Translations under genes and position numbers: made by a program | Assembly: GCA_027603945.1 (NCBI GenBank) | Contig: JADIIU010000021.1 | Location: 89,746 to 153,745 of the forward strand | DNA length: 64,000 nt | Source: Terramyces sp. JEL0728 | Lineage: Eukaryota > Chytridiomycota > Chytridiomycetes > Rhizophydiales > Terramycetaceae | Direction: 5' to 3' | Shown here: positions 1-64,000 of the stretch, one piece after another | How the letters are laid out: each line of letters starts with the position of its first letter | Numbering within the stretch: position 1 is the stretch's first letter | Notes under the pieces: generated by a model | What the model was told of the DNA's origin: nothing | What the model saw: the letters and a program-made list of their open reading frames with translations, nothing else | Database searches by the model: none

Positions 1-66
1 TATTGCAAAACACTTTCAATTTATTTGATTAAAATATATCGATTTAAGCAATATTTGGCAGTTTAT

Positions 67-1858
67 TCAGAAACGATAGCCCAAGTTTTGGAGTTTGGCA
101 TTCGTTACATTTATGATATTCTCTACTGAAGTGTCTTTGGTGTGAATATTAGAGCAATTAAAGGTCTGCTTGTAACCCATGTTGGCCAATTTCAAAAAAA
201 CCAGTTCAGGATTGAAAGTTGACATGTCGTTTGGACAATCAGGTATTACAACATTGCCATTTGGTGTTTTATAAATAGAAAAGGCGGATGATTGCCTCTT
301 TAATACCTTTTCTCGAATTTCTTCTTTGGACGGATATTCCTTGAGAGTTGAAATGGGCTGTTTTTGATCTTCTAGTATATTAGGTTCGGGTGGAAGGATT
401 TCTTTAGGTATTTGAGAGCCAGTTGACTCTGTAACCTTTAGTGTTGATAAATTTTCAAGTTCTATCGTTGCAGTGTCTTGTTTAGCTTCAGCACTAGGAT
501 TTCCAGCAACCACAGCAATTTCATTATCTATGTCTTTGGCAACCTGATCGCTTTTCAGATCATTTTCACTGGATACTTCTTCATAACTGTATTGATCTTC
601 AGATGTGGTTGGTAGTGTTGAACATTCACTTTCTTCAATAATCGTTTCCATGATGGTTTTGGAAGGAGAGAAACAGTTTAAATCTTCCGTTTGGTAGTAC
701 TTGCTTTCATCAAACATTTCTACATAGTTCAAGCTGTCAGGAGAGTCTTCAAACTGCTCCTCCACCGAGTAATTGATTTGCAAAGAAGGGGGACTCTTGA
801 TTGGAATCGGGTGGATGATATCGGCATGTTCTGGTTGATCTGCATAATAATCGGTGATGATTGTTGTGATATTTGATGTTGGAGGTGTGATTTGTACTTT
901 TAATCCAGGGGATTTGCTTGAAGGACTGGTTAATTCCATCTTTTCAATTGGCAAATCAGATTCAAATTCTTCCGGATTATCCTGCCTAACAACTATTTCT
1001 GTTTCAGGCCCAGCTACTTTCACCATCAGGACTGAATCTGAATCTACATTTGAAATTTCATGTATATTTTGATCCACTGATTCCTCAATTTCCTGCACAG
1101 CAGGATTTTGGATACTCTCTACTTTACGATCCAGCTCATCGATACTTTGTTCAACAGGGCTACCCGAATGTAGTGGTTGGTCAACATCTTGATTTTGCAA
1201 AATGGCTCCTTGATTGCTGTACACAAAATCCAGGTTTTCAACAGTTGTATTCGACGAGTCTAAATCTGAATCCTTAGATTCAAGCATGACAGCTGGACTA
1301 GTTGCTTTATAGTTTGAATTGATTTCAGCTGGATTATCCACCGCGTTAATACTTTGCGACAGCTTTGAATTTACATAGTGATCAGAATTTCTACTGGAAT
1401 TTGAGATTGTTGAATTCATTGAATTTCTTGACCGCAGCTGTCGATTTCCAAGTAATGGCCCTTGATATCCGTTCTTTTCCGCATTTCTTGAAATTGCAAA
1501 AATGCAGTCAATTACCTGTATATCAGTTCAGTATTACTTGATTGATATTCTTCTTTTCAAAAAGGTCCACTGTTTGAAATGTTTCGAACGATGACAGACC
1601 CAAGCTTGGTAGCGTGTCCAGGAATTTGGAAATATTATCCATTTTCTTGAAAGGCAATGACGAAGATGCATATTTGATGGGTGTGCTGTGAGGAGTTAAC
1701 GCATTTGAAAGCTTGCATAGAATAATCCCGTCATTCAGCGCAGTAGCCAAATCCTCCTCGATTGCTATTCCAACGACATTTTCAATCCATTCTCGCGCTT
1801 CATTTTCCCTAACTATCGACGATTTCAAATCATTTTTGTACAATTCCAAAGGGTTCAT
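67..1858 (-). CDS. CH-domain (calponin/transgelin-like) protein with long acidic tail
   Basis: Two exons, 1858-1538 and 1515-67, give 589 residues; the intron 1516-1537 is 22 nt. Residues 1 to about 139 form a single calponin-homology domain of the transgelin/Scp1 type (EAREWIENV near the start, FETFQTVDLFEKKNINQ at the splice, then VIDCIFAISRNAEKNGYQGP). Such domains bind actin filaments. The remaining 450 or so residues are rich in Glu, Asp, Ser and Pro, look disordered and resemble nothing I know; a small hydrophobic patch (ELVFLKLANMGY) lies near the C-terminus. The intron sits at the same codon boundary (Gln-Val, phase 0) as in the second CH gene at 48412. No calponin repeat is visible, unlike that paralogue. 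An actin-associated cytoskeletal role is inferred. The stop codon is followed directly by ATAAA, giving AATAAA. CH domain sure; tail function unknown. Confidence 0.85.
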
Positions 1859-1971
1859 TGAAGAAATGCTAACTCAAGTTGGCTCTGTTCTGGCGTTTCA
1901 GATTACGCCAGAGATTGGGGCTTGTGGATCAGTGTCAAATATATATCGCCATCTTTTATTAATCAATCGTC

Positions 1972-3504
1972 CTAATCAAAATCAGCATAATCTTCTAGCC
2001 CAACATATTCGCTTTCCTCTGACGCGCGAGTAATTCTATTTGAATCTAATATGAACAGGAGCGATATGGCGATCGTATAGAACGAAGCCATAACAAAGAA
2101 ATAGAATTCTGGGAAATTCTTTACGGTCAGCTGCCAAATATTTGGATATAATATTCCACCAAAAAGTGAGATAATTTGGTCCAAAAACGATATTCCAGAA
2201 AATAAAGTCCCTTGAGATCCAGATGGTACTGATATTGATATCAAAGATCGCAAAGTTGGACCTGCCAAAGTACCAAACCCATCAAACACCGTCAAACCAT
2301 ACAGTACCCCGGATACTGGGGTGACGGCTTTCCCTATTGTTGAAGTAATAATAATCAGTAATCCAGTCTTGATTAAGGATAATTCCCAGCTTATTTTATC
2401 CGGTCCAGCCAAGTTGCTGGTTTTGCATAGTTTCAGTATTAATGGGTACAGCAAACCCATGTTGACCATCCTGCTGATGGATGATATAAGAACATATTGG
2501 CCTGGATTAAATAAAATTACCTTCGTCTTGACTGTCCCATCCAAATTTGTAAGAAACAAATTGGAAAAATAGCGTGGACGAATGGGCAAGTGTCATTATT
2601 CCATGTACCACCAAAAGCAATATGAAAGAGGTAGATTTGGCTTTAGCAAATACATCCACTGCAGATGAAACAATATCTGTAAGAGAATTCACTTCATTTT
2701 GTGGGATTTGCTCAAAATCCAATGATTCTGGCAAGAGGAATATCGCATAGAAAATAACCAAAATTTCGATAATAATGGAGGCAGAGAATACTACTATTGA
2801 ACCATTATCAAATGATCTGAAAATTGCTCCTCCTATCAACGGCCCAAATGCAATCCCTCCAAAGAGAATTGCTTCTCCAACGATAAACGTCTTGCCTCTA
2901 TTTTCTGCATCGGAACAGTCAGCAAAATAAGATACAGTTGCATTCATAATGGCTATTACCCCGCCTAGCCATCCTTCAATGAAAGACGCGAGCAACAGTA
3001 CCCACAAGCCATATCCAAATCGGTCTACAGTGATATAAGCCGTAAAGGAAACCAGCGAAGCCGAAAGTGCAATTACAATAATAGGCTTGCGTCCAATGCG
3101 ATCAGACAAAAATCCATATACCGGGCCAACGATAATTGATAATGCAGAGAATATCCTGATGATCATCACCCATCTTACTGCTAATACCTGACATTAATCA
3201 CACTTACTTGAACGTCAGTATTAGTCCTGCACCTGCCCCAATCCATATCCCCGTGAATAACTGGTGAATTGTAAAATCCTGGCAAGTAAATTGCGGTGCT
3301 ATTTACTTGCAGCATATCTATATGGTCGAATCTAGCACATAGATACAGCATTAGCCACTGTTGGATGATTCCAGAAGTCATGGACATTGCCAGGACGTAG
3401 AATAGACCTGGGATGCATATGTAAAATGGCGACGGCTTCTTTTTGGTTTCAGAATGGATCGAGTTGCTCAGGTTAATTTGCTCCTGGTATAGATCACTTT
3501 CCAT
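1972..3504 (-). CDS. Major facilitator superfamily transporter
   Basis: Three exons (3504-3208, 3187-2521, 2501-1972) encode 497 residues; the introns 3188-3207 (20 nt) and 2502-2520 (19 nt) restore one frame across the gene. About twelve hydrophobic segments are visible. The loop after the second helix carries the MFS motif A form GFLSDRIGRKP. This suggests an integral membrane, proton-coupled or facilitative transporter of the tetracycline/drug or metabolite type; the substrate cannot be told from sequence. The N-terminus has a short cytosolic stretch with KKKPSP before the first helix, and the C-terminus is acidic (EESEYVGLEDYADFD). It lies 113 bp upstream of the CH-domain gene on the same strand, with no sign of functional linkage. 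The ATG at 3504 is the first in frame. Confidence 0.85.
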
Positions 3505-3698
3505 AATTTCCCTTGGATTTTCTACTATTTATCACCGCGCAGTGACAGATCTGATCACAATGATCAATGCCATCACCGCCATTAAGACATGGAGAGCTTC
3601 ACGACTCTACTTAAATGAGACACTGGGTTTTATTTTTTTGGTTTTTTAGAGGAATTGGTTGACGATTCATTCTTGCGTTTGACAGTGGGCGAATAAAC

Positions 3699-4338
3699 CT
3701 AGTTAGCCTAAGATTAAGAGCTTGCATACCTTTTCAAAGTAAGACTTTGAATCCTTGATGTTGTCCTTCATGGTTGCACCACCCTTCTTCCATCCAGCAG
3801 GGCTAAAATTAAAAGCAACTTACCAAACTTCGCCGTGTTTAGCATGGAATTGAATAGCTTCAACGAGACGGTAAACTTCGTCAATGTTACGGCCGATTGG
3901 CAAATCGTTGATTTGAGCAACACGAACATTTTGTTTGTCATCAATGATAAAGGTACCGCGAGCAGCCAAGCCAGCATCACCACCTTCTTCAATCAAGACA
4001 CCGTAATCTCTAGAGATTTGCTTGGTGACATCAGCAACAAGTGGGATGTGCATTTCTCCGAGCCCACCTTGCTTTCTTGGTTGGTTAATCCAGTTAAAGT
4101 GTGAGAATTTAGAGTCAATGGAAACACCAACAACTTCGGCGTTGATCTTTTTGAATTCGGCTGCCTTTTCGCTGAATGCAATAATTTCGGTTGGGCAAAC
4201 AAAGGTCCAATCCAACGGATAGAAGAACAATACGAGGTATTTACCCTTGTAATCGTCCAATGAGACTTGCTTGAATTCACCGTCAACGACTGCTTGTGCA
4301 CTGAAGGCTGGAGCTTTTTGTTGGATTTTGACAACCAT
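3699..4338 (-). CDS. TSA1: Typical 2-Cys peroxiredoxin (Tsa1/Prdx-like)
   Basis: Exons 4338-3824, 3802-3730 and 3707-3699 encode 198 residues, the usual size for the family. It is a thioredoxin-dependent peroxidase reducing hydrogen peroxide and alkyl hydroperoxides in the cytosol. The peroxidatic cysteine is C48 in FVCPTE. The resolving cysteine is C172 in EVCPAGW, whose codon is split by the first intron (3803-3823, 21 nt). The GGLG motif and the C-terminal YF (SYFEKAN) that mark overoxidation-sensitive peroxiredoxins are both present. The second intron (3708-3729, 22 nt) leaves a terminal coding exon of only 9 nt (Ala-Asn-stop). The start at [10 protein letters not shown] matches family starts; the frame continues upstream as far as a GTG at 4389 without an earlier ATG. 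Confidence 0.95.
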
Positions 4339-5596: not shown

Positions 5597-5947
5597 TTTC
5601 TATGAAAACTTTTGAAACTTGCTCTGCTTCGATTTTTGTGGCTTGTGACACTCCTATTTAGGATTCAATTTTTTCAAAGGAACTCGGTTTATGTTATCTT
5701 TAATCTGGTCAAGACATTGCAGAGGTGACTGATCATATCTCCAGACTCTGGATGCCTGCGAGTGGTTTAATTCGATACATCTCATCCTCACATTAAATTC
5801 CTTTCGTCGGGATCTCAATCAAACCACCCGCCAAATTCAAGTCCACAATATAGACAGTTTATTGAAAATGAGAAGCTGGTTCCTTTCCTTGCCATCTGCC
5901 ATTCGACTTTTTGCTATTAATGACTTTAATCTTATCCAATAACTACA
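5597..5947. other. Intergenic region upstream of the 389-aa gene
   Basis: These 351 bp lie between the start of the unknown minus-strand gene and the 3' end of CSN6. No open frame with family resemblance was found. At 5762-5777 there is a 16-nt string, GTGGTTTAATTCGATA, that matches a universally conserved segment of small-subunit rRNA; the flanks do not continue the rRNA match convincingly. I see no tRNA fold here. Confidence 0.4.
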
Positions 5948-6808
5948 TTAGCAAGATTTCACTTCGTTCAACGCATCGGTATTCTTTGTAATAGTTGCGA
6001 GATACAGTATTAGTGTCACGTCGTTATAATCTTTTTGGAAATCGTTTTCGAATTCTGGGTCTTGAATAAGAGGCAAGCGCGCCAACAGACTGCTGATTTG
6101 ACGCAAGAGTGTATGGTCTTTAGCTAATTTGCCTTGTTAAGGGAAAATACCTTGCTGCACGGCTTGTACGTAATCCAACAAAACCAGAATTCTAGAATAC
6201 AGCATTTGAATTGCACTCTTTTGTCCTTTTAAATGGGCAACCACTACATTAGCATAACATACAGGCATTTTCACTCTCGTTAGAAATATGCGCGACATGA
6301 TCAACTGCAATTCTTTCTGCTTCTCCAGTTTCAATTATAAACGTAGATTCCAATAATTGAATTGATCCGCTATTTGGTTCCATGAAAGATTCATAGATTT
6401 TAATTGGTAATTGCTTTGTATTGCTATGTGGATCGAGCTTCAAGTACAATGGTGATTCATTGACATCCAGGAACTGTTTGTGTAGTATATTGTCCACTTG
6501 GTTTAACTCGCTTCCTGACGAATACCAGCCCAGGAATTCCAACTTTGGAAATACTTGCTTGTACTGCTCTTGCTTTTGCAACATGTAAACTTTATCCACA
6601 GTCTTGTCTGACAAAGGAATCTCAAATGAATTCATGATTTCGATTTCTCTTCCGTTTTGAGTTCCTAGAATTGCACCAATGACTCGAGCATCCTTATTTT
6701 GAAGAGAAAGCCTGGTGTAATGATCCGAAATGTTGAGAATTGCAAGCGGATGTCTAGAATTAGCAATCGTTACAGCTTGATTTCAAATGTTGACTTTTCC
6801 GATTTCAT
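5948..6808 (-). CDS. CSN6: COP9 signalosome subunit 6 (CSN6, MPN- domain)
   Basis: Four exons (6808-6774, 6753-6263, 6243-6151, 6132-5948) give 267 residues; introns are 20, 19 and 18 nt, the 18-nt one (6133-6150) being the shortest in the window. The protein matches CSN6 along its length: GAILGTQNGREIEIMNSFEI, then FPKLEFLGWYSSG, then ERIAVDHVAHIS, a helical segment with LKGQKSAIQMLYSRI, and a C-terminal NDVTLILYLATITKNTDAL. CSN6 is the catalytically inactive MPN subunit that pairs with CSN5 in the complex removing Nedd8 from cullins in the nucleus and cytoplasm. The JAMM metal-binding histidines of CSN5 are absent, as expected. The N-terminus is short (MKSEKSTFEIKLHP) and agrees with the family start. 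Presence of CSN6 suggests a full metazoan/plant-type COP9 complex, which Saccharomyces has largely lost. Confidence 0.93.
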
Positions 6809-6853: not shown

Positions 6854-7625
6854 TTAGTGTAAAAAATAATCAGTAAAGGAAATATCTGGGAATTCAAATT
6901 GCTCATCAGGAGCCTTAATCACAGTAACGCGATCATCCCCCTTGTTATAACCTGCAATTAATCTCGATTACTTGAGGAAGGAACGCAATAGTATCTACAC
7001 ATCGAATGAACAAGCAAACGAAGGAATGAATTGGTAATTTTCAAATGCAATTCTTCGCCATCAATTACAGTAGCATTGGTCAACGAAACCCATTCTTCAG
7101 AGTTATTGGAATTCATCTCAATGTCAGAAATGTCCATATCCAATTCATAATCTTCTTCCTTGTAAATACACTTCTTGACAAAGTTTCGAATTTCATATTC
7201 AAAGTCTTTTAGCAATGGCTCATCGCAAGAGTATCTTCTGACATGCTGGCGCAATTTCCTGTCATTTCTAGTCAAGTTATGCGGACCTGAATGAAACCAT
7301 GCTTACCAGCTTTGTGGTTCTTTTCCCTTTCCTGCTGTTCTTCTTGATCGGAAAGATCAGAGTCCATATTGATAAACGGCGATGGTCCTGCTGGAGGATA
7401 ACCTGGTTTTTCGTCTTGCTCTTCAATATAATTTGGATTCTTGTTTGGTTTGAAAGGGTGAGAAGAAAAAGAATCATTTTCTGCTCGTTGTCTCTTCTTT
7501 TGTCCTATTCGTTTTTTGCTTTCGACTTCCTTGTAAGAGATAGGACTAGATTTTCGAAATAATTCTAGGATGCTGAAATCAACTTGGGAATCTTCCGGGT
7601 TATGAGGTTGCAAATCAATTGCCAT
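6854..7625 (-). CDS. R3H-domain protein (R3H-associated N-terminal type)
   Basis: Exons 7625-7307, 7286-6972 and 6951-6854 encode 243 residues; both introns (7287-7306, 6952-6971) are 20 nt. The middle, HNLTRNDRKLRQHVRRYS, followed by an acidic stretch, resembles fungal and plant proteins with an R3H-associated N-terminal domain. The C-terminal part (SFLRLLVHSMCRYYCV, then GDDRVTVIKAP) fits an R3H single-strand nucleic-acid-binding fold. The N-terminal half is charged with a basic cluster KKRIGQKKRQR that looks like a nuclear localisation signal. Function in RNA or ssDNA binding is inferred from the family only. I chose the ATG at 7625; the frame remains open upstream through a TTG to a candidate acceptor, so a further 5' exon cannot be excluded. 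The phytochelatin synthase stop lies only 90 bp upstream. Confidence 0.75.
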
Positions 7626-7715
7626 AATTTTGTCGTTCTGTTGTGCCTTAAAAATCAAACTGCGAGCACGTTCTGTGACCTAGAGACTTCAAGAGGATAT
7701 TAAAATTAATATATA

Positions 7716-9035
7716 TTATAAAGATTTAGAACAATTGCTTGACCCGCAGATACAGTAGGAGCTAAGCATAGTATCCCACTGCGCAGACATTCTAGAAATT
7801 TCTTCCTTCAATAATGGCAAGGAGTCAAAAGTACTTTCCGCTCTTAAATTTTGCACAGTTTGGAACGAAGCCTGCGGAAAGTTTGTCAGTAGTTCCCTAG
7901 GAAGCGACAATAGAAATAGAGTTGCTAACTGTTCCACCGAGTTCTTTCCCAGTTGAACATGAATTTTGTTTTCACAAGTAGATTCACAAGGCGCCATTGC
8001 TTCACAAACTGCATTGTACATTGCATGCTGTTTAACTTGATTCATCAGCAATTCAAATTCATCCTTCAGATCAGCCGCCAGTTGTCTATTTCCATCCACA
8101 GTACCTGCCAGATCGAAACCGCCATCTGCCAGCGCGGTATAGAAATGGTGTTTATCAGGGATGTTGTTAACGATTGCTTTGATGGGATTGCTGTTGGTTT
8201 TCAGCTCTTGAGGTATAATTTGCCAGAATATTTTTGTTAATCCCTGCCATTCCAACTTTTGTGCTGTAATTTTGCAAAGAGGTAGCGGTTTAGAATCGCC
8301 TAGTGTTACCATAATAGTTACCCCGCGTAAGTACAAAATATCCTCTTGGCAGCCCAGTTGTAACATCTATTGGGTTCATTGCTTCATAGAGCAACTTTGC
8401 ATCTACAAAATAACTGGGATATTTAAATCTAGCAGTGTCCATGACTAGCACCTGATTGCTGGAGGGGCAGTAAGCACCAACAGGCGAGAAATGGCCATCA
8501 CCAGTTTGGTTCAGGGTTTTTCTGCTGAACGACACAACCATATGAGTATCCAATGAGCTGGTAACTTTTTTCAAATCATTAATGAATTCTTTGTACGAGG
8601 TTTGATCGCTCCGCTTTGTTTCTACATTCAATCCATTCCCTCTGGCTGTTGCTGCCAGTTGAATAAAATTTAATCCGTCCTTCTTTATATCTTCCAATGA
8701 AGCACAGCATTCTAGCATATCATCGGCATACCACCTCCAAACGCCTTTCCATCTCTTCCCTGGATCGACCGATAGTGCATTCAATACCATCGCAAGTGAC
8801 CCTAGACCGCAAAAAGCAGGCTCGCTCTGCATAGTGAAATTCCCTGATAATGAAAAGAATATTTCTGCATGTCCTTCTCCCAAAGATTTTCTGAACAATT
8901 CTTTTCCTTGGGGAGATGTGAATGAATACAAATTCTACCGTTAAATATATTTACATTAGGAAGCTCTCTTCTATAAAAGGTATTTTGAATTGGATTCCTC
9001 GAGATACTAATTAACCGCTTGATAAGTTTGAACAT
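7716..9035 (-). CDS. PCS1: Phytochelatin synthase
   Basis: Exons 9035-8955, 8934-8322 and 8299-7716 encode 425 residues; introns are 8935-8954 (20 nt) and 8300-8321 (22 nt). It is a gamma-glutamylcysteine dipeptidyl transpeptidase that joins glutathione units into phytochelatins, which chelate cadmium and other metals. The papain-like triad is C69 (SEPAFCGLGSL), H175 (GDGHFSPVGAY) and D193 (VMDTARFKYP); the 106 and 18 residue spacings equal those of plant PCS1. The family entry FYRRELPN lies across the first splice. The C-terminal half, the metal-sensing region, is less conserved and has clustered cysteines (CEAMAPCESTC, YCICGSSNC). The first 20 residues are basic and hydrophobic without acids (MFKLIKRLISISRNPIQNTF) and could be a mitochondrial presequence. 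PCS is rare in Fungi; Schizosaccharomyces is the known case. Confidence 0.96.
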
Positions 9036-9338: not shown

Positions 9339-10764
9339 ATGAGCGAGTTGACATTTCCCAACCTGGACACAAAAGAAATATTGCAGATACTGATCGAGCT
9401 TGCAATTCCATGCACTGAAGAGGACCTAAAGAAACCAACTATGCACAAGATGCTCCAAATTTACGAAAAATTCACAGAGCTGCTTTTAGGTTCAACAAGA
9501 AACTTGGCCGTACCTGATTTCAGCACTCTCTTGGAAACACCAGATCTTCAGCAAGATTCGATCGCTTTAATGGGATTCTACCGCCAATTGTATTTTGTGT
9601 TAATTTTAGACTCAAAATTGTAACTCAAGCTGGAGTTGAAAACTTTAGTCTACGTGATTTACTCACCCCTTCAGTTAAACGGGTCCGATATATTCTTAGT
9701 GCAATCATTAATTTCTGTAAATTTAGAGAAGACAAAATGCAGATTTACGAACAGTGTTCGGAACAAGCTGTAATTTCCTTTTGAATTTAGGAAGCGCTTG
9801 CAAATCAAAAAGTGTCACTGCAATCGAACCTGGATGACCTGACTGAAAAAGTAAACTCCTACAAGTAAGAAATGCTTGATTGTAGGGCTTCCAGAGTTGC
9901 AGAAACACCTTTGGCTGAAAAGAAGAGGGAGATTGTTAGTGTGTTGACAGCGGATTTGAGAGAACTAAAGAAAATTCAAACCAATGTTGGAGGAGAAATT
10001 GATACTTTGAAGCTGGAAAAGTCCCAATTATCAGAAAAAATGAACAACAATACGTTCCTAATTACAAATCTGAAGCAGGAATGCGCGAGATTGCAATCCA
10101 GAATTATTACAAATCCGGAAAAATTAAAATTGGCTATAGATGATATGATAGCATCTGTTAAAATTGAAAAAGCAAATGTAGCTGCTTCCGAAAAGAAATC
10201 TAGAGAATTGCAAGTGCGAATCGACACTATGGATACAGTCGAAGCAGTATTTGCATTTAATCTTAGGATGTTGAAAATTGCTGTGAATTGTTACTGGAAG
10301 CTGAACAGGAAAGAAAGAAAAAAAGAGATGAGCAACTTCGCTACCAAAAAGATGCCGAAAGTCTTCAAAGAAAGCAAGATGAATTGCGCGAGTTGACCAT
10401 GAAGGAACAAGTAAGAAAGATTTAATCCCAGCAATTACTCCGCCAGCTCGAGAGTGCAAACTCAAAAATTACCAGATTAGAGCAGCACCATAGTCAACGG
10501 GAATCTGCTAATGAACAGAAATTTGTTAAATTGAAGGAGGAATTCGAGGAAGTTGTAGCGCAACATCAAGCTAGTGTCTCCAGAGCCCAAGAAAATGAAA
10601 CTCAAGCAGTTGAATACGAAGAAAAGGTATACGCTGATTTAACAAAGACTGAATTGTACCAAAGCACCGTTGAGGCTGAAATCAATTCCTTAAATCTTCA
10701 CTATAGCAACCTGATTCTTGGGATTGAATCCTTTCAAAATACTATTCAGGCTTCAAGGATTTAA
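9339..10764 (+). CDS. NUF2: Kinetochore protein Nuf2 (NDC80 complex)
   Basis: Six exons (9339-9589, 9610-9769, 9791-9864, 9886-10246, 10267-10410, 10432-10764) give 440 residues, the normal Nuf2 length. The introns are 20, 21, 21, 20 and 21 nt. The first 130 residues form the calponin-homology-like head: FPNLDTKEILQILIELAIP, GFYRQLLKIVTQAGVENFSL, then RDLLTPSVKRVRYILSAIIN and FCKFRED. The rest is coiled coil. Nuf2 dimerises with Ndc80 and binds microtubules at the outer kinetochore in mitosis. Within the last exon a 21-nt GTATAC...AAAG stretch (10627-10647) is intron-like but in frame without a stop, so I kept it as coding. AATAAA overlaps the stop codon. The next gene, a large coiled-coil protein, starts 32 bp downstream on the same strand. 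Confidence 0.93.
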
Positions 10765-46700: not shown

Positions 46701-46819
46701 TTTTTCGCTTCTTTTTCGATATCCGGCGATCCTGCCCTCTTTGTCGAATGATCATTGATCAGTCTTGGATCCTGCTCCTCATCATCGTCAGAGAATACAT
46801 CAAAAATATTCTTGTTCAT
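43722..46819 (-). CDS. MTR4: Exosome cofactor RNA helicase Mtr4 (Ski2-like DExH)
   Basis: Four exons (46819-46120, 46099-44145, 44125-43795, 43774-43722) encode 1012 residues; introns are 20, 19 and 20 nt. Mtr4 unwinds structured RNA and feeds it to the nuclear exosome, alone or in TRAMP. Motifs in order: SAHTSAGKT (Walker A), [30 protein letters not shown] (DExH), [24 protein letters not shown] and [10 protein letters not shown]. The arch/KOW insertion follows, and the DSHCT domain closes with [14 protein letters not shown], the hallmark Mtr4 C-terminus recovered only by removing the last 20-nt intron. The N-terminal 80 residues are acidic and variable. Assignment to Mtr4 over Ski2 rests on the C-terminal signature and overall match. 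Confidence 0.95.
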
Positions 46820-46849
46820 TTTCGTTTTGTAAAAAAAAAATCACAAATC

Positions 46850-52551: not shown

Positions 52552-52657
52552 TCTTTGAAAAAAAAGAAAAAAAATATCCAGTATCATGTTTATTAAGCTC
52601 TCATTCGAATTTATGGAGCTACTCACACCTTTAATTTATTAGTAATTTCTAATTAAA

Positions 52658-54314: not shown

Positions 54315-55694
54315 ATGAATTTCGAAGTGTTTTTGCGCAAGCTGTTCCGGAACTACCAACAAGCAGATCAGCACTTGCACATATATCAGGATTTCAAACA
54401 AAGTGGAGCCGTCTTTCGCTATACCTTCCTGGGTGAAATTTCAGCAGCATCCATGATATCGAAAGGGGATCAGTACCAGATATCAGAAGATATTGCGGCG
54501 GATCTAAATTTGGCTCAAGTACAAGGATTTGTGCCAGTTGGGGATATGATCAACTTTGCCAACAGAATGATACTCCTCGAATCGAGCCTTTCAAATATGC
54601 CAACTGTTCAAATATACTCTTCAAAATATGCGAATATCATTTTGCATGCACTTTCCAGCGCAAACCGCACTTTGGAGCTGCACTATGACTGTTTGGAAAA
54701 GGAGAATATCGAATTATTGAAGCATTGTCTCCAGTATGTAAAGAAGCTTTCCTTGCGATGTAAGCGAGTAGCTAAATTAGGGTACCAGCCTCCTGTTTCT
54801 GATTTCTACCATCAACTACTTTGCACGCCATTGGTCTCATTAGAATTGAATGATATGTATCTCAGTGAGGAGCATCAAATGCACATTCGAGATCTATTAA
54901 AATTAAAGTTGGTAGACGTCGCACTGGTTAATGTTCAGCTGGATGACATGTGGAATCAAGTTGATCTATCATCCAAAAAAGTCCCTCTCCAGAAATTGCA
55001 CTTGAGTAATGTCAATATTCCTAAAATCCTCATGCGACAAATGCTGCTCTATTCAAACATGACCGAATTGAAACTGCACGGAATCTCGGTTAGCAGCGTC
55101 TATTTTCCAATTATTGAAAATCTTCAAGTATTGGAGTGGAATTCGATGAACTTGGAAGATTTTAATCAGGATATGTTTGTCGAGTTGTTGAACCGCAACC
55201 CACGGCTGTCTTTGCTTTCGTTTACATTCAACATGTTTACAAGGCAAAATATCAATGATTTCAAAAATGTGTTGCAAAATCACTTATACCTTGAAAACTT
55301 GTCGATTGAATATGATCCCAGCTTTGATTTTGAATCCATTGGTAAAAACACGTCAATCAAATATCTTTCTCTCCTTGGCCCAAACTTTATATTCCCAGAG
55401 GCACTACTCGAAAACCACTTTATTACTGATATGCAGGTTAATGGCGTATCAGATACTACCATTTCTCAACGGAACCGTGCAGAGTTTGCCAAGAATTTAG
55501 CAGATTTGTTTGTTGCGAGTAAAACGCTTGGACTGCTCGCGCTCCCTAGTGAACTCAAGATGGATATATTACGCAAGCTGTGCCTGGCCAGCTATATTCC
55601 TCGATTGTACATTGAATTGCTCACAGACTGTCTTTTAACCCAAACGTACAGTGTTAAACTGCCATTTAACATTAATACTTTGATTAATAAATGA
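54315..55694 (+). CDS. Leucine-rich, repeat-like protein, unassigned
   Basis: A single exon of 459 codons from the ATG at 54315 (MNFEVFLRKLFRNY). Leucine-rich segments recur with irregular spacing (PLVSLELNDMYLSE, PLQKLHLSNVNIPK, NMTELKLHGISVSS, NLQVLEWNSMNLED, RLSLLSFTFNMF, YLENLSIEYDPS, SIKYLSLLGPNF), about every 25-35 residues. This suggests a degenerate leucine-rich-repeat solenoid as in F-box/LRR proteins; a clear F-box was not found at the N-terminus. A substrate-recognition or scaffold role is inferred. The first 150 residues are mixed alpha-beta and unfamiliar. The last codons read AAT AAA TGA, so the poly(A) hexamer is inside the coding end. Confidence 0.75.
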   Translation: MNFEVFLRKLFRNYQQADQHLHIYQDFKQSGAVFRYTFLGEISAASMISKGDQYQISEDIAADLNLAQVQGFVPVGDMINFANRMILLESSLSNMPTVQIYSSKYANIILHALSSANRTLELHYDCLEKENIELLKHCLQYVKKLSLRCKRVAKLGYQPPVSDFYHQLLCTPLVSLELNDMYLSEEHQMHIRDLLKLKLVDVALVNVQLDDMWNQVDLSSKKVPLQKLHLSNVNIPKILMRQMLLYSNMTELKLHGISVSSVYFPIIENLQVLEWNSMNLEDFNQDMFVELLNRNPRLSLLSFTFNMFTRQNINDFKNVLQNHLYLENLSIEYDPSFDFESIGKNTSIKYLSLLGPNFIFPEALLENHFITDMQVNGVSDTTISQRNRAEFAKNLADLFVASKTLGLLALPSELKMDILRKLCLASYIPRLYIELLTDCLLTQTYSVKLPFNINTLINK

Positions 55695-56089: not shown

Positions 56090-58675
56090 ATGAGCTTCAT
56101 GTCCAATAACCAGCAGTACACTCCAGGCCAGTATCAATCACAGTCTGGATATCAGCCTGGCCAATATAATCGTCTTCCTCAAGGACAACAAAATGATCAA
56201 AATGCACCACCCCAAGCGCAATATAGTAGCTATGATTCTCAACCACAGCAATATGAACCATATCGCAGACAAGAATATGTTCCCCCTCCAAGGTACAAAC
56301 TTTTTTAACACCAGTGATTTTGGACGCTATGAAACCATCAAGAAAGGGCCAACCACTATGAGAAGGGTAAAAGCGCATTCCGGAAACTTTGTAATGAGCA
56401 TCCCTATCTCAAAGCACCTGCTTCAAGATGCCGAATATACCACTGGTGAAGAATTTACACACACTACTTATACTGGTGTTACTTGCGAACCTGAGGAATT
56501 CCCTGAACACTACCACCTTAGAGCCAGGAGATACAACAGAGAAATCAAAGTTGCACTTGTAGTTACCATGTATAACGAAGATGATGATCTGTTCACAAAG
56601 TCTATGATGGCTGTTGCCAAAAATATCAACTACCTCTGTTCAAATGAATGCCCATTCTCGTGGGGCAAAGATGGCTGGAAAAGCTTTGTCGTTGTTATTG
56701 TATCTGATGGCCGTCAAAAAATCAACCCAAGAGTATTAACTGTCCTGTCTACAATGGGTGTTTACATTAAAGGGCTTCCAAGGGCTTCTGTGGACGGAAA
56801 GCCAGTCACTGCCCACATTTTCGAATCTACCACCCAAGTAGCTGTCGATAGGGATTTCAACATTCGTACCAGAAGAGACAATGTGGTCCCAACCCAAATT
56901 ATCTTTGTGTTGAAGGAAAAGAACGCCAAAAAGGTACACTATCTTTAACGTAGATCAACTCGCACAAATGGTTCTTCAATGCCATCTGTGAAACCATCAA
57001 GCCTGAAGTTTGCATGCTGTTGGATGTTGGCACCAAGCCATCCGAAACCGCATTTTTCCATTTATGGAGAGCCTTTGATAGGAATCCACTGGTTGGTGGT
57101 GCTTGTGGTGAAATCCGTGCTGAAGTTGGGAAAGTTGGGAAAAACTTGTTCAATCCATTAGTAGCAGCCCAGAACTTTGAATACAAAATGTCCAACATCT
57201 TGGATAAGCCGCTTGAATCTGTTTTTGGTTACATTTCTGTGCTACCTGGTGCTTTCTCTGCGTACAGATACAAAGCTTTGCTTGGCAGACCTTTGGAGCA
57301 GTATTTCTTGGGTGAAAATCCAGCAGCGGATATCTTTACTTCCAATTTGTACCTTGCAGAAGATCGTATTCTATGTTTCGAATTGGTCACAAAGAAAACC
57401 GAAGCATGGGTGCTCAAATATGTCAAGAGTGCTAGAGCCGAAACCGATGTTCCTGATACTTTGGCCGAACTGGTTTCTCAAAGAAGACGTTGGTTGAACG
57501 GTTCGTTCTTTTGCGCTATTCATGCCGAATTGCACTTTATGCAAATCTACAGCTCGCCTCACTCTTTCTTCCAAAAGTTTATGTTTACTCTAGAATTCAT
57601 TTACAACGCAGTCAACATTCTATTTTCGTGGTTCCAGATTGGTAACTTTTACTTGGCTTTCAAGGTAATTCCTTTCTAAATATAGTTTTTGTTTGATATC
57701 AGAAACGCAGAAACTCTACAGCCTGATTTGATCAAGACCGATCCATTCAGAGGGTTCCCAATGTTTGACATCCTTAACTTTGTCTATATCGTTACTCTGG
57801 TTTCAATGTTGATTGCGGCATTGGGCAACCGTCCGCAAGGTTCCCGTTGGCTATACTACCTGATCTCTATTTTCTTTGCTATTATTATGGGGCTTATGGT
57901 GTTCTTGGGAGGATGGAGCATAAAGATTCAATTTGATGTGTTCTATGCAACAAATCAGCACAAATCCATCGGCGAAGTGCTCAAGAACGTCCTTGGCACT
58001 CCTGCATTCAGAGATATCGTTGTTTCCACCATTTCAACTTATGGATTGTATTTAATCGCTTCCATCATGCATTTGGATCCATGGCACTGTTTCACCAGTA
58101 TGATTCAATATTTATTCCTGCTGCCAACCTATATCAACATCTTTATGGTCTATTCCTTCTGTAACTTGCACGACGTTTCCTGGGGTACCAAAGGGGACAA
58201 CAAGATTGAAGAGGTTGCCGGCGGTGTAAAGAAAATCGTTACTGCTGATGGTCAAGAGGTATTCGAAGTAGAAGTTCCTACAGATCAAGATGAAGTAGAC
58301 GCCGCATGGAAAGAGTCTGAAAAACAGCTAATCTACAACAAAGAAAACAAAGCAGTCGAAGAAAACAAAGTAGATGAAAAGACAAAGAAAGAAGATGGCA
58401 CTAAAGAATTCCGTACGAAAGTGGTATTGTTCTGGGTACTATGCAACCTGCTACTCATTGCCATCTTCACAAACGATTTGGCGCTTCAATTAATGTTCCC
58501 TAACGGCGTGCACCAAGTGGGAAATGTCAATCCATACCTTACATTCCTTTTCTGGTCCGTAGCTGCACTATCCTTGGTTAGATTCTTGGGATGTTGCGCA
58601 TACCTGACCCAATGGTGGACTGAAAAGATTCATGATGCTGGTGTAGCCCCAAGCCGTGCCAGTAGCAATGTCTAG
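56090..58675 (+). CDS. Chitin synthase, division 1 (class I-III type)
   Basis: Four exons (56090-56293, 56316-56933, 56954-57664, 57686-58675) encode 840 residues; introns are 22, 20 and 21 nt. It polymerises N-acetylglucosamine from UDP-GlcNAc at the plasma membrane. Residues 1-68 are Gln/Pro/Tyr-rich and disordered. The catalytic region carries [64 protein letters not shown] and the product-site QRRRW. Seven or so membrane helices fill the C-terminal half, with the family block [14 protein letters not shown] lysine- and glutamate-rich cytosolic insert (around residues 690-760) precedes the last helices. No myosin or DEK domain is attached, which excludes division 2. Alternative start: ATG at 56099. 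Confidence 0.95.
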
Positions 58676-59507: not shown

Positions 59508-59539
59508 GGAATCAAATTTAAGTGGATCCTCACATAATC

Positions 59540-61075
59540 ATGGGTGAAAACGAAAACGACACGTTCATTCTCGCTGAAGGAAACAAAGACCAAAACGAAA
59601 CCGACCTTCGCAAGGCTGCATTGGCAGAATTGGATTTGGCTAATTGGTCTACTGCCCACTGGAGAGCAGTCTTGGTAGCTGGCTCTGGTTTCTTGACCGA
59701 TTCTTACGACAACTTTGTTATTTCAATTATTGTAACTATTGTTGGATATGTGTACTATAGCAATTCAGGAAACACAGTGCCATCCTTCGAATCTGGATGG
59801 TTGAAGGCAGCTTCATCCTGGGGTAACTTGGTTGGCCAATTTGTCTTTGGTATCATGGGTGATATCTATGGAAGAAAGAAGATGTACGGTGTTGAGTTGA
59901 TTATTTTGATGATTGGTGCATTAGGTTGTGCTCTTGCTGCTCCACCAGCCAGGGGGTTGTCTTTCGTTGCTGTCTTGGGATTCTGGAGATTTATTCTTGG
60001 GGTAGGTGTTGGAGGTGATTACCCGGTATCTGGTGTTATTACTTCTGAATTTGCTTCAGTAAAGAACCGTGGAACAATGATTGCTTTGGTCTTTGCTATG
60101 CAGGGTGTTGGTATCATCCTCGGTTCGCTTGTTTCTGTCTTTGCCTTGCTTGCATACAAAAATATGGCTTATGATGACCCAATGAACCTTGATTATGTAT
60201 GGAGAGTTATTGCTGGCTTCGGTATTGTCCCTGCTCTTTGCGCAGTCTACTTTAGATTGACCATCCCAGAAACTCCTAGATTTGCCATGGATGTACAAGG
60301 TGACGTTGCTGGCGGTGCTAGAAGCGCTCTTCAATTCATGAATTCTTCAACCAGGATTAATGAAGACCTTGAAGCTCCAAAAGAGAGAAAGGTTTCCTTC
60401 TTCAAAGGATTTACCACATACTTTTCCAAATGGGGCAACCTTAAAGTGCTGATTGGTACTGCCATGTGTTGGTTCTTCTTGGATATCGGTTACTATGGAA
60501 CCAACTTGAACACCACCACTATCATCAAAGCGATTGGTTGGGGATCTCCTGGAGCAAAAGCACCAGCTTACGACGTAGTCTGGAACTTGGCTATTGGCAC
60601 AACTATTGTCAACTTGTCTGGTAACTTTCCAGGTTACTTCTTTACTGTATTCTTTGTTGACAGAATCGGCCGCAAGCCAATTCAGTTCCTTGGGTTCACT
60701 GTCTTGACTATTGCTTTCGCTTTACTCGGTGGGTTGTATGATACTCTCACCAAGAATGCAATTGGTGCGTTCGTCTTCTTGTACTGTGTTGCTCAATTCT
60801 TCTTCAACTTTGGTCCAAACTCTACCACTTTCATTATCCCTGCTGAAGCTTTCCCTACCCACGTCAGATCATCTGCGCACGGCATCTCTGCTGCAGCTGG
60901 CAAATTGGGTGCCATTATCGCCGCTCAAGGATTTGATCCTCTTAAAACTACCAGCGGAGGTGTGCCAATGTTGCTGTGGATCTTTGCTGGATGTTGTTTC
61001 ATGGGTCTTCTCTTCACCTTCTTGGTCCCAGAAACCAACGGTAAATCATTAGAAGAATTAGGCGACTATGAATAA
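59540..61075 (+). CDS. PHO84: PHO84-type proton/phosphate symporter, paralogue 1
   Basis: A single exon of 511 codons. It belongs to the PHS family of the MFS: plasma-membrane, high-affinity proton-coupled phosphate uptake. The family signature GVGGDYPVSGVITSE lies in TM4, the motif A loop reads GDIYGRKKMYG, and IPETPRFAMDV and GTAMCWFFLDIGYYGTNLNT are typical. Twelve helices are visible, with a charged central loop (KERKVSFFKGF). The N-terminus has ALAELDLANWSTAHWRAVL, as in fungal phosphate permeases. The start at 59540 is the first ATG; the frame extends upstream from a GTG. No intron, in contrast to paralogue 2, which has one at SSW|GNL. The long upstream region with repeated palindromes suggests strong regulation, probably by phosphate supply (inference). 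Confidence 0.95.
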   Translation: MGENENDTFILAEGNKDQNETDLRKAALAELDLANWSTAHWRAVLVAGSGFLTDSYDNFVISIIVTIVGYVYYSNSGNTVPSFESGWLKAASSWGNLVGQFVFGIMGDIYGRKKMYGVELIILMIGALGCALAAPPARGLSFVAVLGFWRFILGVGVGGDYPVSGVITSEFASVKNRGTMIALVFAMQGVGIILGSLVSVFALLAYKNMAYDDPMNLDYVWRVIAGFGIVPALCAVYFRLTIPETPRFAMDVQGDVAGGARSALQFMNSSTRINEDLEAPKERKVSFFKGFTTYFSKWGNLKVLIGTAMCWFFLDIGYYGTNLNTTTIIKAIGWGSPGAKAPAYDVVWNLAIGTTIVNLSGNFPGYFFTVFFVDRIGRKPIQFLGFTVLTIAFALLGGLYDTLTKNAIGAFVFLYCVAQFFFNFGPNSTTFIIPAEAFPTHVRSSAHGISAAAGKLGAIIAAQGFDPLKTTSGGVPMLLWIFAGCCFMGLLFTFLVPETNGKSLEELGDYE

Positions 61076-61185: not shown

Positions 61186-62642
61186 ATGGATTCCCAATGT
61201 TTGGATTATCGATCGACCACAGTATGGAGTACAGCCGCACTGTTGTTATTAGTATTTGTGGAGACTAATATTTATCGTGCAAGACCAATTACCCTCCCAA
61301 AAATACTCTCCAATATTCAAAAATACAACTTTATAATACGGATACCCTCCTTTGAAGTACATTTCTTTACAGTGATCCATACGGCTATTTACTTTGCAGT
61401 GCTGATATACTTTTCAGTGGTGAACTTTGACAGAGAGAATGACGGAAATTTCCCCCGGTTTGCGTATATTGCTCTTGTTCAATTCGCTATAGCACCGGTA
61501 TTGGCTTTACGCAACTCTCCGCTCACTTTTATCGGATGCTCGTACGACAAAATGGTGTACTGGCATATTATTCTTTCTACAGTGGGTGTAGCCTACAGCA
61601 TCCTCCACGGTAGCTTGTATCTCTACGAATGGAACCAGTACGGAGGTAAGTTTTATTCACAGTAGGTATTTCGTTCTTTCTTGACGCCGATCCACGCTAC
61701 AAGTATGGCCTGGTATCAGGCGGGGTAGTTTGCTTGATATTCCTCACCGCCAACTTTATCTTTAGAAGATTCTTTTTCAAAATCTTCAAATTTGTTCACC
61801 TGGTATCTTATCCATTGTTGTTGGCATTTCTGTATCTGCATATGAACAACTGCACCCTCCGATTCATCTTGCCTGCATTTGTGCTTACAGTTCTGGATTG
61901 GGGTTTGCGTATCTTCAGATTTATGATTCCAACCTCAGTGCTGAGGAACGAAAAGGCAGGGCCAGTTACAAAATTAACTCTGAAAACATACATGAAAACC
62001 ACCAAGCCTGGCCAGTGGTTCCTTGTATATGCTCCACCTTTTGATATCCATCCATTTAGCGCTACAAGCACAACTTTCAAAGGTGAAGATGCACTCTCCT
62101 TTGCAGTTGCTCCTTACGGCAGCTTCACAAAAAATATTTCCGACATTAAACACTTCAGATTGGATGGGCCGTATGGGAATTCCTTTGACAATATCCTCAA
62201 ACACAAGCATATCGTGCTTATCGCCGGCGGAATTGGCGTGACACCACTCCTGAGCATTGTCCATTTTGCAAAGAAGCTGTCAGTTGAAGCTTGCGGAGTT
62301 AATATCAACTTTGTGTTCATTGCCAGATCCATCAACATGGTCGAAGCTTTTGAACCAGAACTGGACAAAGTGGCTCAATTTTGTAATCTGGAATGTTACA
62401 TCACACAAGTAGATGCTCTACGGAATGACATGAGTAGCAACTACGAATTTTCGATAAAGGTGGGCCGTCCTAGCATCCGCGACATTTTGGCTTCATCTAA
62501 AACCAATTCCACTGAACGGGAAACGATAGGCGTTGGTGTTTGTGGTCCTCGTGGATTAATTATTGATGTGAAGGAGGCAGCGCTTCGGGAGGCCGGCTAT
62601 GACACTCAATATAGTGTATACTCGGAGATTTTTAGCAGGTAG
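61186..62642 (+). CDS. Ferric reductase-like transmembrane flavocytochrome (FRE/NOX family)
   Basis: Two exons (61186-61645, 61666-62642) encode 478 residues, short for the family. Membrane helices carry two histidine pairs spaced for bis-haem binding: YWHIILSTVGVAYSILHG and KFVHLVSYPLLLAFLYLH. The FAD site is IHPFSATS and the NAD(P)H site is LIAGGIGVTPLLSIVHF; GVGVCGPRG near the C-terminus completes the nucleotide-binding half. Fungal FRE proteins reduce ferric or cupric ions at the plasma membrane for uptake; NADPH oxidases of the same fold make superoxide, and I cannot separate them firmly. The 20-nt intron (61646-61665) ends CAGTAG, so a 17-nt alternative is also in frame. It lies between two phosphate transporter genes on the same strand, 110 bp after the first. 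Confidence 0.88.
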
Positions 62643-62719: not shown

Positions 62720-62730
62720 TGATATAAATT
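62720..62730 (+). promoter_or_regulatory. TATA-like element TGATATAAATT
   Basis: Same 11-mer as ahead of PHO84 paralogue 1; here 139 bp before the ATG, so a core TATA role is less obvious. Confidence 0.35.
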
Positions 62731-62771
62731 ATCATTCCAGTATCGATGTTTTCTGTCGTGGATTCGACTTG

Positions 62772-62792
62772 CATTTGTTTGATAAACAAATG
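62772..62792. repeat. 9-bp inverted repeat with 3-bp spacer
   Basis: CATTTGTTT-GAT-AAACAAATG is a perfect inverted repeat in the 226-bp gap ahead of PHO84 paralogue 2. It may be a dimeric protein-binding site; it includes the forkhead-like core AAACAAA on one strand and its complement on the other. Confidence 0.55.
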
Positions 62793-62868
62793 TGGATTGC
62801 CAATACCTTGGAAAACGTGCGAGAGCATCCACCTATTTAAGGAAATGAATTTACAAAATTAATCGCGA

Positions 62869-64000
62869 ATGTCAACTGAAGATAAGGATATAACAGAACT
62901 AGACGTTCGAGAACAAGCTTTGAAGGAATTAAATGAAGCTAAATGGGGAGTCGCTCATTGGCGCGCTATACTAGTAGCTGGGTCTGGATTCTTGACTGAC
63001 TCGTACGACAACTTTGTTATCGGTATTATGACAACTATTATTGGGTATGTTTACTTTGGATGGAACAAGAACAAAATTCCAGATTTCGATAACGGGTGGT
63101 TAAAAGCAGCCTCGTCATGGTAATTATCGTTCATATTAGGGGTAACTTGACTGGACAATTCGTTTTTGGTATCTTGGGAGATATTTTAGGAAGAAAGAAG
63201 ATGTACGGTATCGAATTGATTATTTTGATTGTCGGCGCCGTTGGTTGCGCTCTTGCTGCTCCACCAGCCAGAGGATTCGGGTTTGCTGGTATTTTAGGGT
63301 TCTGGAGATTCATTCTTGGTGTAGGTGTAGGTGGAGATTATCCAGTATCTGGTGTTATTACCTCTGAATTCGCTTCAACCAAGAATAGAGGTACCATGAT
63401 TGCTTTGGTCTTTGCTATGCAAGGTGTCGGCATCCTCCTAGGTTCAGCAGTGTCTGTTTTAGCGCTATTGGCTTATCAAGACATGATTCGTTCGGATCCT
63501 ATAAACCTAGATTTTGTATGGAGAGTCATGGCCGGCTTTGGTTGTGTCCCAGCACTCTGCGCAGTCTACTTTAGGCTGACTATCCCAGAAACCCCACGAT
63601 ATGCACTCGATGTTGAAAAGGATGTTGCAAAAGGTGCAGCAGCAGCCAGACAATTCATGAGCAACAAGATGACCATTGTCCATGAAGAAGAGCATATTTC
63701 ACAATCAACAGAAAAAAAGAAGCCTTTCCACGTCAGCTTTATCGAGTACTTTGGCAAATGGGGCAACTTTAAAGTACTGATTGGTACTGCCATGACTTGG
63801 TTCTTCTTGGATATCGGTTTCTACGGTACCAACTTGAACACTTCTACCATCATTTCTGCTATTGGCTGGGGTGCTCCTCCAAGTCCTGCTGCACCGTATG
63901 ATGTAATCTGGAACTTGGCTGCTGGTTCTGCTATAGTAAATTTGGCTGGTAACTTCCCTGGCTACTTCTTTACTGTATTCTTTGTTGACAGAATCGGCCG
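62869..64000 (+). CDS. PHO84: PHO84-type proton/phosphate symporter, paralogue 2 (cut by window end)
   Basis: Exons 62869-63119 and 63140 to beyond 64000 give the first 370 or so residues. The protein tracks paralogue 1 closely (AHWRAILVAGSGFLTDSYDN, GVGGDYPVSGVITSEFAS, GTAMTWFFLDIGFYGTNLNT). The 20-nt intron 63120-63139 is absent at the same codon in paralogue 1. The last 38 or more bases of the window are identical to the corresponding part of paralogue 1 (around 60635-60672) although third positions diverge elsewhere. It differs in the central loop (HEEEHISQSTEKKKPFHVSF), longer and more charged. Likely a second phosphate permease with different affinity or expression, and a tandem duplication interrupted by the FRE-like gene. 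Confidence 0.94.

Follow-up and report, generated by a model that had tools for sequence, protein, structure and literature searches.

The smallest intron that a spliceosome can handle, and why, is an open question. In the literature passages available, sets of ultra-short spliceosomal introns are described from ciliates, from a relic nucleus, and from parasites with few spliceosome proteins. According to the intron passages of the respective papers, the introns of Stentor coeruleus are 15-16 nucleotides (nt) long, with the branch A at nt 10-11 and a 5-nt tail, and occur in 18% of genes (PMC9505925); mikrocytid introns measure 16-17 nt and chlorarachniophyte nucleomorph introns 18-21 nt (PMC10245619), Trichomonas introns 23 nt (PMC12316389), and those of Paramecium and Nyctotherus about 25 nt (PMC5014332). 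For fungi, the short example named in the relevant part of a survey of 644 genomes is Cryptococcus, with a mean of 63 bp (PMC8476143), and a passage on C. neoformans gives an average of 56 nt and uses a 20-40 nt bin (PMC11913375). According to the same paper, about 79-125 nt of RNA are covered by the human A complex once assembled. Here we analysed a window of 64,000 nt (contig C21, positions 89746-153745) from the draft assembly (15.0 Mb, 231 contigs) of Terramyces sp. JEL0728, placed by NCBI in Chytridiomycota, Rhizophydiales, Terramycetaceae, and found that its predicted genes are interrupted by introns of about 20 nt. Terramyces is a free-living, culturable soil chytrid. Judged from splice signals and conserved genes, its U2-type intron set has very probably shrunk to a floor set by the splicing machinery.

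Genes were modelled with a purpose-written gene finder that uses codon usage, allows no in-frame stop, and scores donor, branch and acceptor with weights seeded with ten short introns. Two length priors were used, one flat over 10-150 nt and one favouring 18-24 nt. With the flat prior, 84 introns were predicted in 25 genes, and 70 of them were 17-23 nt long (one of 17 nt, nine of 19, 33 of 20, 16 of 21, ten of 22 and one of 23), the other 14 being spread over 27-129 nt. The prior favouring 18-24 nt gave 94 introns in 27 gene models, 90 of them 18-24 nt long (one of 18 nt, ten of 19, 45 of 20, 21 of 21, ten of 22, two of 23 and one of 24), plus single predictions of 34, 70, 91 and 120 nt; the rise from 70 to 90 short introns owes partly to this prior. 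Predictions of 34, 91 and 120 nt are doubtful and were excluded. Two 21-nt introns, at 16500-16520 and 38646-38666, were overlooked by the finder and supplied by homology, and the window total is thus 92 introns of 18-24 nt plus one of 70 nt. An earlier note on this DNA had counted 92 introns in 26 genes, 91 of 18-24 nt and one of 70 nt, with half exactly 20 nt. Our count is nearly the same, and 20-nt introns make up 45 of the 92 in the window and 137 of 312 in a wider set of 264 kb (prior favouring 18-24 nt), confirming the observation of predicted introns of about 20 nt in the window. A finder setting with too low an intron penalty produced false introns of every length across the window and was discarded.

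We then aligned public proteins to three genes with a spliced aligner that makes an equal charge for any intron of 10-200 nt and allows frameshifts. The first gene, URA2 (carbamoyl-phosphate synthase / aspartate carbamoyltransferase; 31422-38167, plus strand), encodes 2196 aa when spliced; its main open reading frame (ORF) has Pfam matches, and residues 60-1000 of that ORF are 96% identical to Boothiomyces sp. JEL0838. As queries we used parts of the N-terminal 560 and C-terminal 330 residues of the proteins from Boothiomyces, Globomyces, Batrachochytrium, Spizellomyces and Mucor. All five proteins placed introns of 21 nt (31561-31581), 23 nt (31689-31711), 20 nt (32649-32668) and 21 nt (37500-37520) at identical bases, the flat-prior finder having given 74 nt for the 23-nt intron. 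The remaining URA2 intron, third in order, is 70 nt long (31960-32029) and is the sole well-supported long intron of the window; four of the five proteins placed it there, and Mucor yielded an intron of 43 nt (31976-32018).

In the RAD26/ERCC6-like SNF2 gene (14278-17274, minus strand), length-free spliced alignment supported nine introns of 19-24 nt: 16994-17012, 16572-16591, 16500-16520, 16074-16093, 15692-15712, 15547-15568, 15375-15395, 15181-15201 and 15136-15159. The Globomyces protein gave eight introns and the Batrachochytrium protein seven, all of 20-24 nt; with Boothiomyces JEL0866, seven of eight were 19-22 nt and one was 71 nt. The RICTOR-like gene (38252-41769, plus strand) has sixteen introns of 19-21 nt by spliced alignment, 15 of which the finder also found: 38295-38315, 38646-38666, 38772-38791, 38959-38978, 39171-39190, 39329-39348, 39472-39491, 39653-39672, 40076-40095, 40311-40331, 40480-40498, 40724-40743, 40987-41007, 41115-41134, 41259-41278 and 41440-41459. 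Boothiomyces JEL0866 gave 15 introns, 14 of 19-21 nt and one placed as 17 nt, and Globomyces gave 16, of which 14 measured 19-21 nt and the other two 26 and 41 nt. With all introns removed, the URA2, RAD26 and RICTOR models contain no internal stop. The claim that splicing restores family motifs also held: GLGKT is regained in fully spliced RAD26, and CPAGW and a 12-residue MTR4 motif appear in the predicted proteins. The finder placed the peroxiredoxin introns (gene 3699-4338, minus strand; AhpC-TSA Pfam match on the main ORF) at 3803-3823 (21 nt) and 3708-3729 (22 nt), and those of MTR4 (43722-46819, minus strand; Pfam match, and a Protein Data Bank (PDB) MTR4 match of the main ORF) at 46100-46119 (20 nt), 44126-44144 (19 nt) and 43775-43794 (20 nt).

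We assessed how often such introns arise by chance. Scanning both strands for GT[A/G]NG..YTAAY..YAG gave 5, 9, 3 and 2 candidates at 19, 20, 21 and 22 nt, against an expectation of 0.25-0.85 at each of these lengths, estimated with 20 random sequences matched in dinucleotide composition. In a decoy test, false splice-site pairs competed with GT-AG over the 264 kb, which consist of the window together with 200 kb taken from other contigs. The decoys GT..AC, GT..GA and CT..AG were picked 34, 38 and 37 times overall. At 19-22 nt they were picked 1, 0 and 1 times, compared with 221, 214 and 211 for GT-AG in the same runs, indicating that GT-AG ends are required at this size; a decoy-free run gave 226 GT-AG introns of 19-22 nt. 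A run offering GT..AC decoys only yielded 161 decoys, five of them at 19-22 nt. The antisense of 166 kb of predicted exons contained eight matches of median intron quality at 15-30 nt, none at 18-21 nt and two at 22 nt. The corresponding sense-strand tally of intron-like stretches inside exons (one at 29 nt, none at 18-24 nt) is circular because the finder would have spliced such stretches, and the antisense tally alone was used; a reversed-sequence control gave zero introns and was uninformative. Sequencing or assembly indels, or pseudogenes, could mimic short frame-breaking inserts, and the assembly is a draft in 231 contigs. The inserts, however, have GT, branch site and AG at matching positions, with a length peak at 20 nt; none of the three genes checked contains an internal stop once spliced; 18 of 20 regions sampled on other contigs (see below) also hold short introns; and decoy dinucleotides yield almost nothing at about 20 nt, which in effect refutes the indel explanation. 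We therefore give it next to no credence.

The genome was sampled in 20 regions of 10 kb, one each from contigs C1-C20, three of which (on C10, C14 and C17) were placed over actin-family matches. With the flat prior, these regions gave 197 introns in 66 genes, and 156 of the introns were 19-24 nt long (35 of 19 nt, 69 of 20, 31 of 21, 16 of 22, three of 23 and two of 24). Short introns were seen in 18 of the 20 regions, in keeping with the earlier note, which had called them genome-wide in style; in the other two, C1:20001-30000 and C12:20001-30000, the finder found no gene, and their G+C is the lowest of the twenty (0.355 and 0.378). Under the flat prior, most introns were thus shorter than about 25 nt and within a narrow range in both the window (70/84) and the sampled regions (156/197), and the ordinary fungal pattern, introns of about 50-100 nt that can hold a polypyrimidine tract, was not observed. 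The actin-family gene on C10 and the U2AF65 and Slu7 genes on C2 and C3 were modelled with introns of 19-21 nt under a prior favouring 18-23 nt.

The flat prior placed 233 of the 292 introns of the 264 kb at 17-24 nt, and 57 at 31-150 nt. This second group raises the question of a mixed population, in which many longer ordinary introns were missed or fused and 20 nt is a mode, not the style of the genome; the 70-nt URA2 intron, confirmed by homology, and the derivation of the finder's weights from mostly short introns point the same way. At 31-150 nt, however, decoys were picked 30, 34 and 26 times against 48, 49 and 50 for GT-AG. Since decoys rival GT-AG there, roughly half of the longer predictions are probably false, and about 15-24 may be real against about 230 short introns. 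The three homology-checked genes hold 29 short introns and one long one. A mixed population is therefore unlikely, and we return to the reading of an intron set reduced to about 20 nt.

To describe the anatomy of the short introns, we used the 264 kb modelled with the prior favouring 18-24 nt, with branch sites assigned by score. Of the 101 gene models in this set, 85 contained short introns, 312 altogether, at a density of about 1.8 per kb of coding sequence and with lengths of 18 nt (2), 19 nt (56), 20 nt (137), 21 nt (76), 22 nt (30), 23 nt (6) and 24 nt (5). The commonest donors were GTAATT (43), GTATTT (21), GTAATA (20) and GTAAGT (18), with A at position 3 in 284 introns and T at position 6 in 178. 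Branch sites were most often TTAAT (79), CTAAT (49), TTAAC (33) and CTAAC (24). The predicted branch A lay at nt 14-15 in 261 of the 312 and below 14 in one, and it was followed by 5-6 nt in 283, a fixed short distance to the 3' end. The terminal triplets were TAG (201), CAG (80), AAG (27) and GAG (4). A+T content was 69%, and phases 0, 1 and 2 were represented by 145, 89 and 78 introns. An in-frame stop was present in 66 of the 83 introns whose length is divisible by three; because the finder tends to miss stopless introns, this count is not evidence of selection. By our estimate, about nine in ten predicted introns are 19-22 nt long and share one layout, namely GTAnnT, a short spacer, YTAAY with its A at nt 14-15, 5-6 further nt, and mostly (T/C)AG.

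We next looked for parts of the spliceosome. The U2 small nuclear RNA (snRNA) is canonical (140.2 bits), and its GUAGUA branch-pairing stretch is intact. Slu7, Prp18, Yju2 and Isy1 scored above their cut-offs, and Isy1, Yju2 and Slu7 were also identified by PDB matches; the Prp18 model is partial and stops before the last matched exon. An exon-by-exon search found U2AF65 with an E value of 3.5e-74 and 251.7 bits, below the whole-protein cut-off of 310.3. Assembled through four introns of 19-20 nt, this protein matched PDB entries of U2AF65 in the RNA-binding domains (E 9.1e-62) and the C-terminal domain (E 3.7e-20), and Slu7, assembled through introns of 19-21 nt, likewise had strong PDB matches. 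All five protein factors sought were thus found, and this small sample gives no sign of a mass loss of spliceosome proteins as in the reduced systems of mikrocytids and microsporidia. With U2 snRNA, U2AF65, Slu7, Prp18, Yju2 and Isy1 present, the spliceosome does not look stripped. The earlier interpretation, spliceosomal introns in a fungus with a normal gene set, gains support from the GT-AG ends, the branch site and the spliceosome genes.

The usual start of Isy1 reaches the active site of the spliceosome. In Terramyces the sequence upstream of the conserved region of the gene (on C35) yielded no such start; the gene model is uncertain, and its best PDB matches begin at model residue 43. 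The Isy1 start is likewise described as non-conserved in the passage on Stentor (PMC9505925), and an Isy1 N-terminus altered as in Stentor is a lead only.

No other route known to us relies on a GT, a branch site and an AG at fixed relative positions, and we therefore infer that the ordinary major spliceosome removes these introns from RNA by intron definition. Branching would form a lariat loop of 14-15 nt and leave a tail of 5-6 nt. U2AF65 binds the polypyrimidine tract, and in yeast the need for Slu7 and Prp18 is greatest where a long distance separates the branch from the 3' splice site. In Terramyces introns this distance is 5-6 nt and there is no room for a polypyrimidine tract, yet the U2AF65, Slu7 and Prp18 genes are kept. 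Because no tract fits, the U2 small nuclear ribonucleoprotein would be placed by the branch site, by tract-free U2AF, or by another factor; U2AF may act without a tract or be replaced at this step. Human SPF45 takes the role of U2AF for some short introns, and SPF45-dependent introns resemble those of Terramyces in being spliced with a truncated polypyrimidine tract, according to the relevant part of PMC8363638. The SPF45 case differs in being a 56-nt human intron. Deletion bias, or selection for compactness in a genome of 15.0 Mb, may have trimmed the introns until geometry halted the process. Trimming to a geometric stop would produce a steep lower edge (2, 56 and 137 of the 312 introns at 18, 19 and 20 nt) and a softer upper tail (76, 30, 6 and 5 at 21, 22, 23 and 24 nt).

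The inserts could also be real and removed otherwise, by ciliate-style DNA elimination or by RNA cutting of the HAC1/XBP1 or tRNA type. Their length is near that of the shortest known eliminated sequences, and family and pattern searches did not locate U1 and U6 snRNA. Against this stand the GT..AG ends, a branch site able to pair with the canonical U2 snRNA found here, and the presence of spliceosome genes; fungi, to our knowledge, have no macronucleus. We consider removal by such routes highly improbable.

Several points weigh against the reading that the U2-type introns have shrunk to a floor set by the machinery. The introns are predictions from genomic DNA and protein models. Since the finder took its weights, including that for branch distance, from mostly short introns, it would call too few longer introns of a different layout; the window models and the 312-intron set rest on a prior favouring short introns, and the homology checks of three genes alone are free of that bias. 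In those checks, five of the seven RAD26 and RICTOR alignments used one frameshift, some of their junctions were misplaced (17, 26, 37, 41, 56 and 71 nt), and the supporting proteins are themselves gene predictions. The 70-nt intron of URA2 is real, so the machinery is not restricted to 20 nt. For U1 snRNA, the family search gave no match in the genome, although such a blank does not show absence. For U6 snRNA, the family search gave two sub-threshold matches that do not look like U6; these candidates, C199:4823-4928 and C111:34941-35045 (27 bits), lack the full U6 core and were rejected. The two contigs are identical over the first 400 bases compared and match at 1942 of 3105 ungapped positions; the two candidates may represent a repeat or a pair of haplotypes. 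Of two U6 pattern searches of the genome, one was without a match and the other hit a coding stretch. The U6 genes of some fungi carry introns, and the Terramyces U6 gene may be hidden by introns of its own.

We then compared Terramyces with the described systems, as far as the intron passages of the cited papers describe them. Like Stentor, it is free-living and has GU-AG introns of very narrow length with the branch A near the 3' end. Stentor has introns of 15-16 nt with the A at nt 10-11, without a strong branch consensus, in 18% of genes, whereas Terramyces is a fungus with introns of about 20 nt, the A at nt 14-15 and a strong YTAAY in 85 of 101 gene models. The closest length match is the Bigelowiella natans nucleomorph (18-21 nt, more than 800 introns; PMC10245619); that is the relic nucleus of an endosymbiont, whereas Terramyces has a whole fungal genome of 15.0 Mb with genes such as URA2. 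Mikrocytos mackini likewise has introns of narrow length and conserved sequence, but it is an intracellular parasite with 224 introns of 16-17 nt and 17-19 identified spliceosome proteins (PMC10245619), whereas Terramyces keeps the step-I and step-II factors that were sought. Cryptococcus neoformans is also an intron-rich fungus with short introns, although these are about three times longer. The earlier note had placed about 20 nt near the lowest size for any eukaryote; this is close, but it is not the record, which goes lower in Stentor (15-16 nt) and mikrocytids (16-17 nt).

Chytrid genome papers gave no intron lengths in the intron passages of PMC6572847, PMC5364385 and PMC13391722, and the word intron does not occur in the available text of PMC11797018 and PMC9926174. 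In titles and the beginnings of abstracts of the open-licence literature, no ultra-short introns were described in a chytrid or other free-living fungus. The earlier statement that the trait is undescribed in a free-living fungus fits this search, from which it is not provable. These comparisons support Terramyces, with its predicted introns, as a fungal addition to the ultra-short spliceosomal intron sets, intron-dense and with a spliceosome not visibly reduced in the parts sampled. With a fungus that is both intron-rich and free-living, short introns could be studied apart from a reduced spliceosome, and lariat geometry and the requirement for U2AF could be tested directly. It is a possible laboratory system for the minimum intron size of the splicing machine.

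Public protein models were examined in the strain and its relatives. The models HDV01_003170 (RAD26) and HDV01_003177 (RICTOR, a 99%-identical match) of this strain gave 930/930 and 881/881 identities in spliced alignment. They already splice out most short introns, with probable errors at some in both genes. HDV01_003170 retains the in-frame 21-nt intron 16500-16520 as seven residues between GLG and KT, and has a 56-nt intron at 16038-16093 (minus strand) where orthologs support 20 nt; HDV01_003177 has a 37-nt intron at 40480-40516 (plus strand) where orthologs support 19 nt, and is without the first exons. By RAD26 and RICTOR proteins, the nearest relatives of Terramyces are Boothiomyces, followed by Globomyces and Kappamyces. 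A phase-0 intron of length divisible by three that is read as coding gives an insert that starts with V (GTN) and ends with Q, K or E (NAG). We searched for this form among insertions of 5-12 residues with at least 5 of 10 flanking identities in 120 RAD26, 23 RICTOR and 120 URA2 proteins. The results showed it in three of four insertions at phase-0 junctions and, at other places, in 15 of 1156, a tally in which adjacent offsets of a single insertion were counted repeatedly. The three are RICTOR inserts: VMLSVIQ in Boothiomyces sp. JEL0866 (21 nt), VCLINMK in Boothiomyces sp. JEL0838 (21 nt) and VSGTGLQQ in Kappamyces sp. JEL0680 (24 nt). The fourth, in Gorgonomyces RAD26, does not fit the form. 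The Polyrhizophydium RICTOR model has VCQDLVKNQ at another junction, outside the rows that passed the filter. Inserts near junctions in other relatives, including several RAD26 proteins at the variable first junction, were unlike retained introns. Inserts of the retained kind are thus present in four public models, one from Terramyces sp. JEL0728 and three from other species.

These inserts suggest that other Rhizophydiales have introns of 21-24 nt at the same positions, and the presence of such inserts in Boothiomyces and Kappamyces indicates that the trait probably extends beyond Terramyces. A broader proposal is that a free-living chytrid clade, at least Terramycetaceae plus Kappamyces within Rhizophydiales, combines intron-dense genomes, a tract-free splicing code, a fixed layout of 14-15 plus 5-6 nt and a largely complete spliceosome with U2AF65, Slu7 and Prp18; we regard its prospects as evenly balanced. 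If it is true, the lower size limit would be largely a property of the standard spliceosome rather than of a stripped-down or specialised version, testable in a culturable fungus. Gene callers that keep in-frame introns of 21-24 nt as coding would introduce errors into chytrid protein models.

The remaining window genes were modelled by the finder with the prior favouring 18-24 nt. On the minus strand, a gene at 67-1858 has one intron, 1516-1537 (22 nt), and a gene that is transporter-like by eye (1972-3504) has introns at 3188-3207 (20 nt) and 2502-2520 (19 nt). The model at 5859-6808 has introns at 6754-6773 (20 nt), 6244-6262 (19 nt), 6133-6150 (18 nt; 27 nt with the flat prior) and 5943-5962 (20 nt). 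One or more genes at 6854-9035 have introns at 8935-8954 (20 nt), 8300-8321 (22 nt), 7287-7306 (20 nt) and 6952-6971 (20 nt); the rejected 120-nt intron, 7660-7779, probably reflects two genes joined in error. An ABC transporter (17368-21088), with ABC_membrane and ABC_tran on one ORF, has introns of 20-22 nt at 21062-21082, 20911-20932, 19924-19943, 19575-19596, 19054-19074 and 17845-17864, and the doubtful 91-nt prediction lies in it at 20263-20353. Also on this strand are models at 24247-26906 (26500-26519, 25664-25685, 25576-25595; 20-22 nt) and 28805-31036 (30606-30624, 30161-30180, 30000-30018, 29575-29594; 19-20 nt), a GTPase by eye at 50701-52587 (52431-52449, 51851-51870, 51192-51212, 50926-50946; 19-21 nt), and a sirtuin-like gene by eye at 52623-53823 (53683-53703, 52999-53018, 52741-52761, 52649-52668; 20-21 nt).

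On the plus strand, a Nuf2-like gene (9339-10764; a weak Pfam match of one ORF, below the cut-off) has introns of 20-21 nt at 9590-9609, 9770-9790, 9865-9885, 10247-10266 and 10411-10431. A gene that is coiled-coil by eye (10797-14249) has introns at 10900-10920 (21 nt; absent with the flat prior), 11557-11579 (23 nt) and 12836-12857 (22 nt). A membrane protein by eye (22175-24235) has five of 20-22 nt (22387-22408, 22799-22818, 23127-23146, 23747-23766, 24035-24054), and the model at 27077-28208 has four of 19-20 nt (27164-27183, 27670-27689, 27827-27845, 28090-28109). An RNA-binding protein by eye (46748-47593) has introns at 47291-47309 (19 nt) and 47455-47474 (20 nt), and the model at 48412-49127 has one at 48772-48791 (20 nt). 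The model at 54315-55694 has a weakly supported 21-nt intron, 54760-54780, which is absent with the flat prior. A chitin-synthase-like gene (56090-58675; a Chitin_synth_2 match of one ORF, below the cut-off) has introns of 20-22 nt at 56293-56314, 56934-56953 and 57665-57685.

Near the window end, a ferric reductase-like gene (61552-62642, plus strand) has a 20-nt intron at 61646-61665. On either side of it lie two genes, at 59540-61075 and 62869-63939 (the latter on the plus strand), which by eye are MFS transporter-like and very alike. The 34-nt prediction at 63903-63936 is probably an end artefact. One of the two transporter genes has no predicted intron, and the other, the gene at 62869-63939, has a 20-nt intron at 63120-63139.

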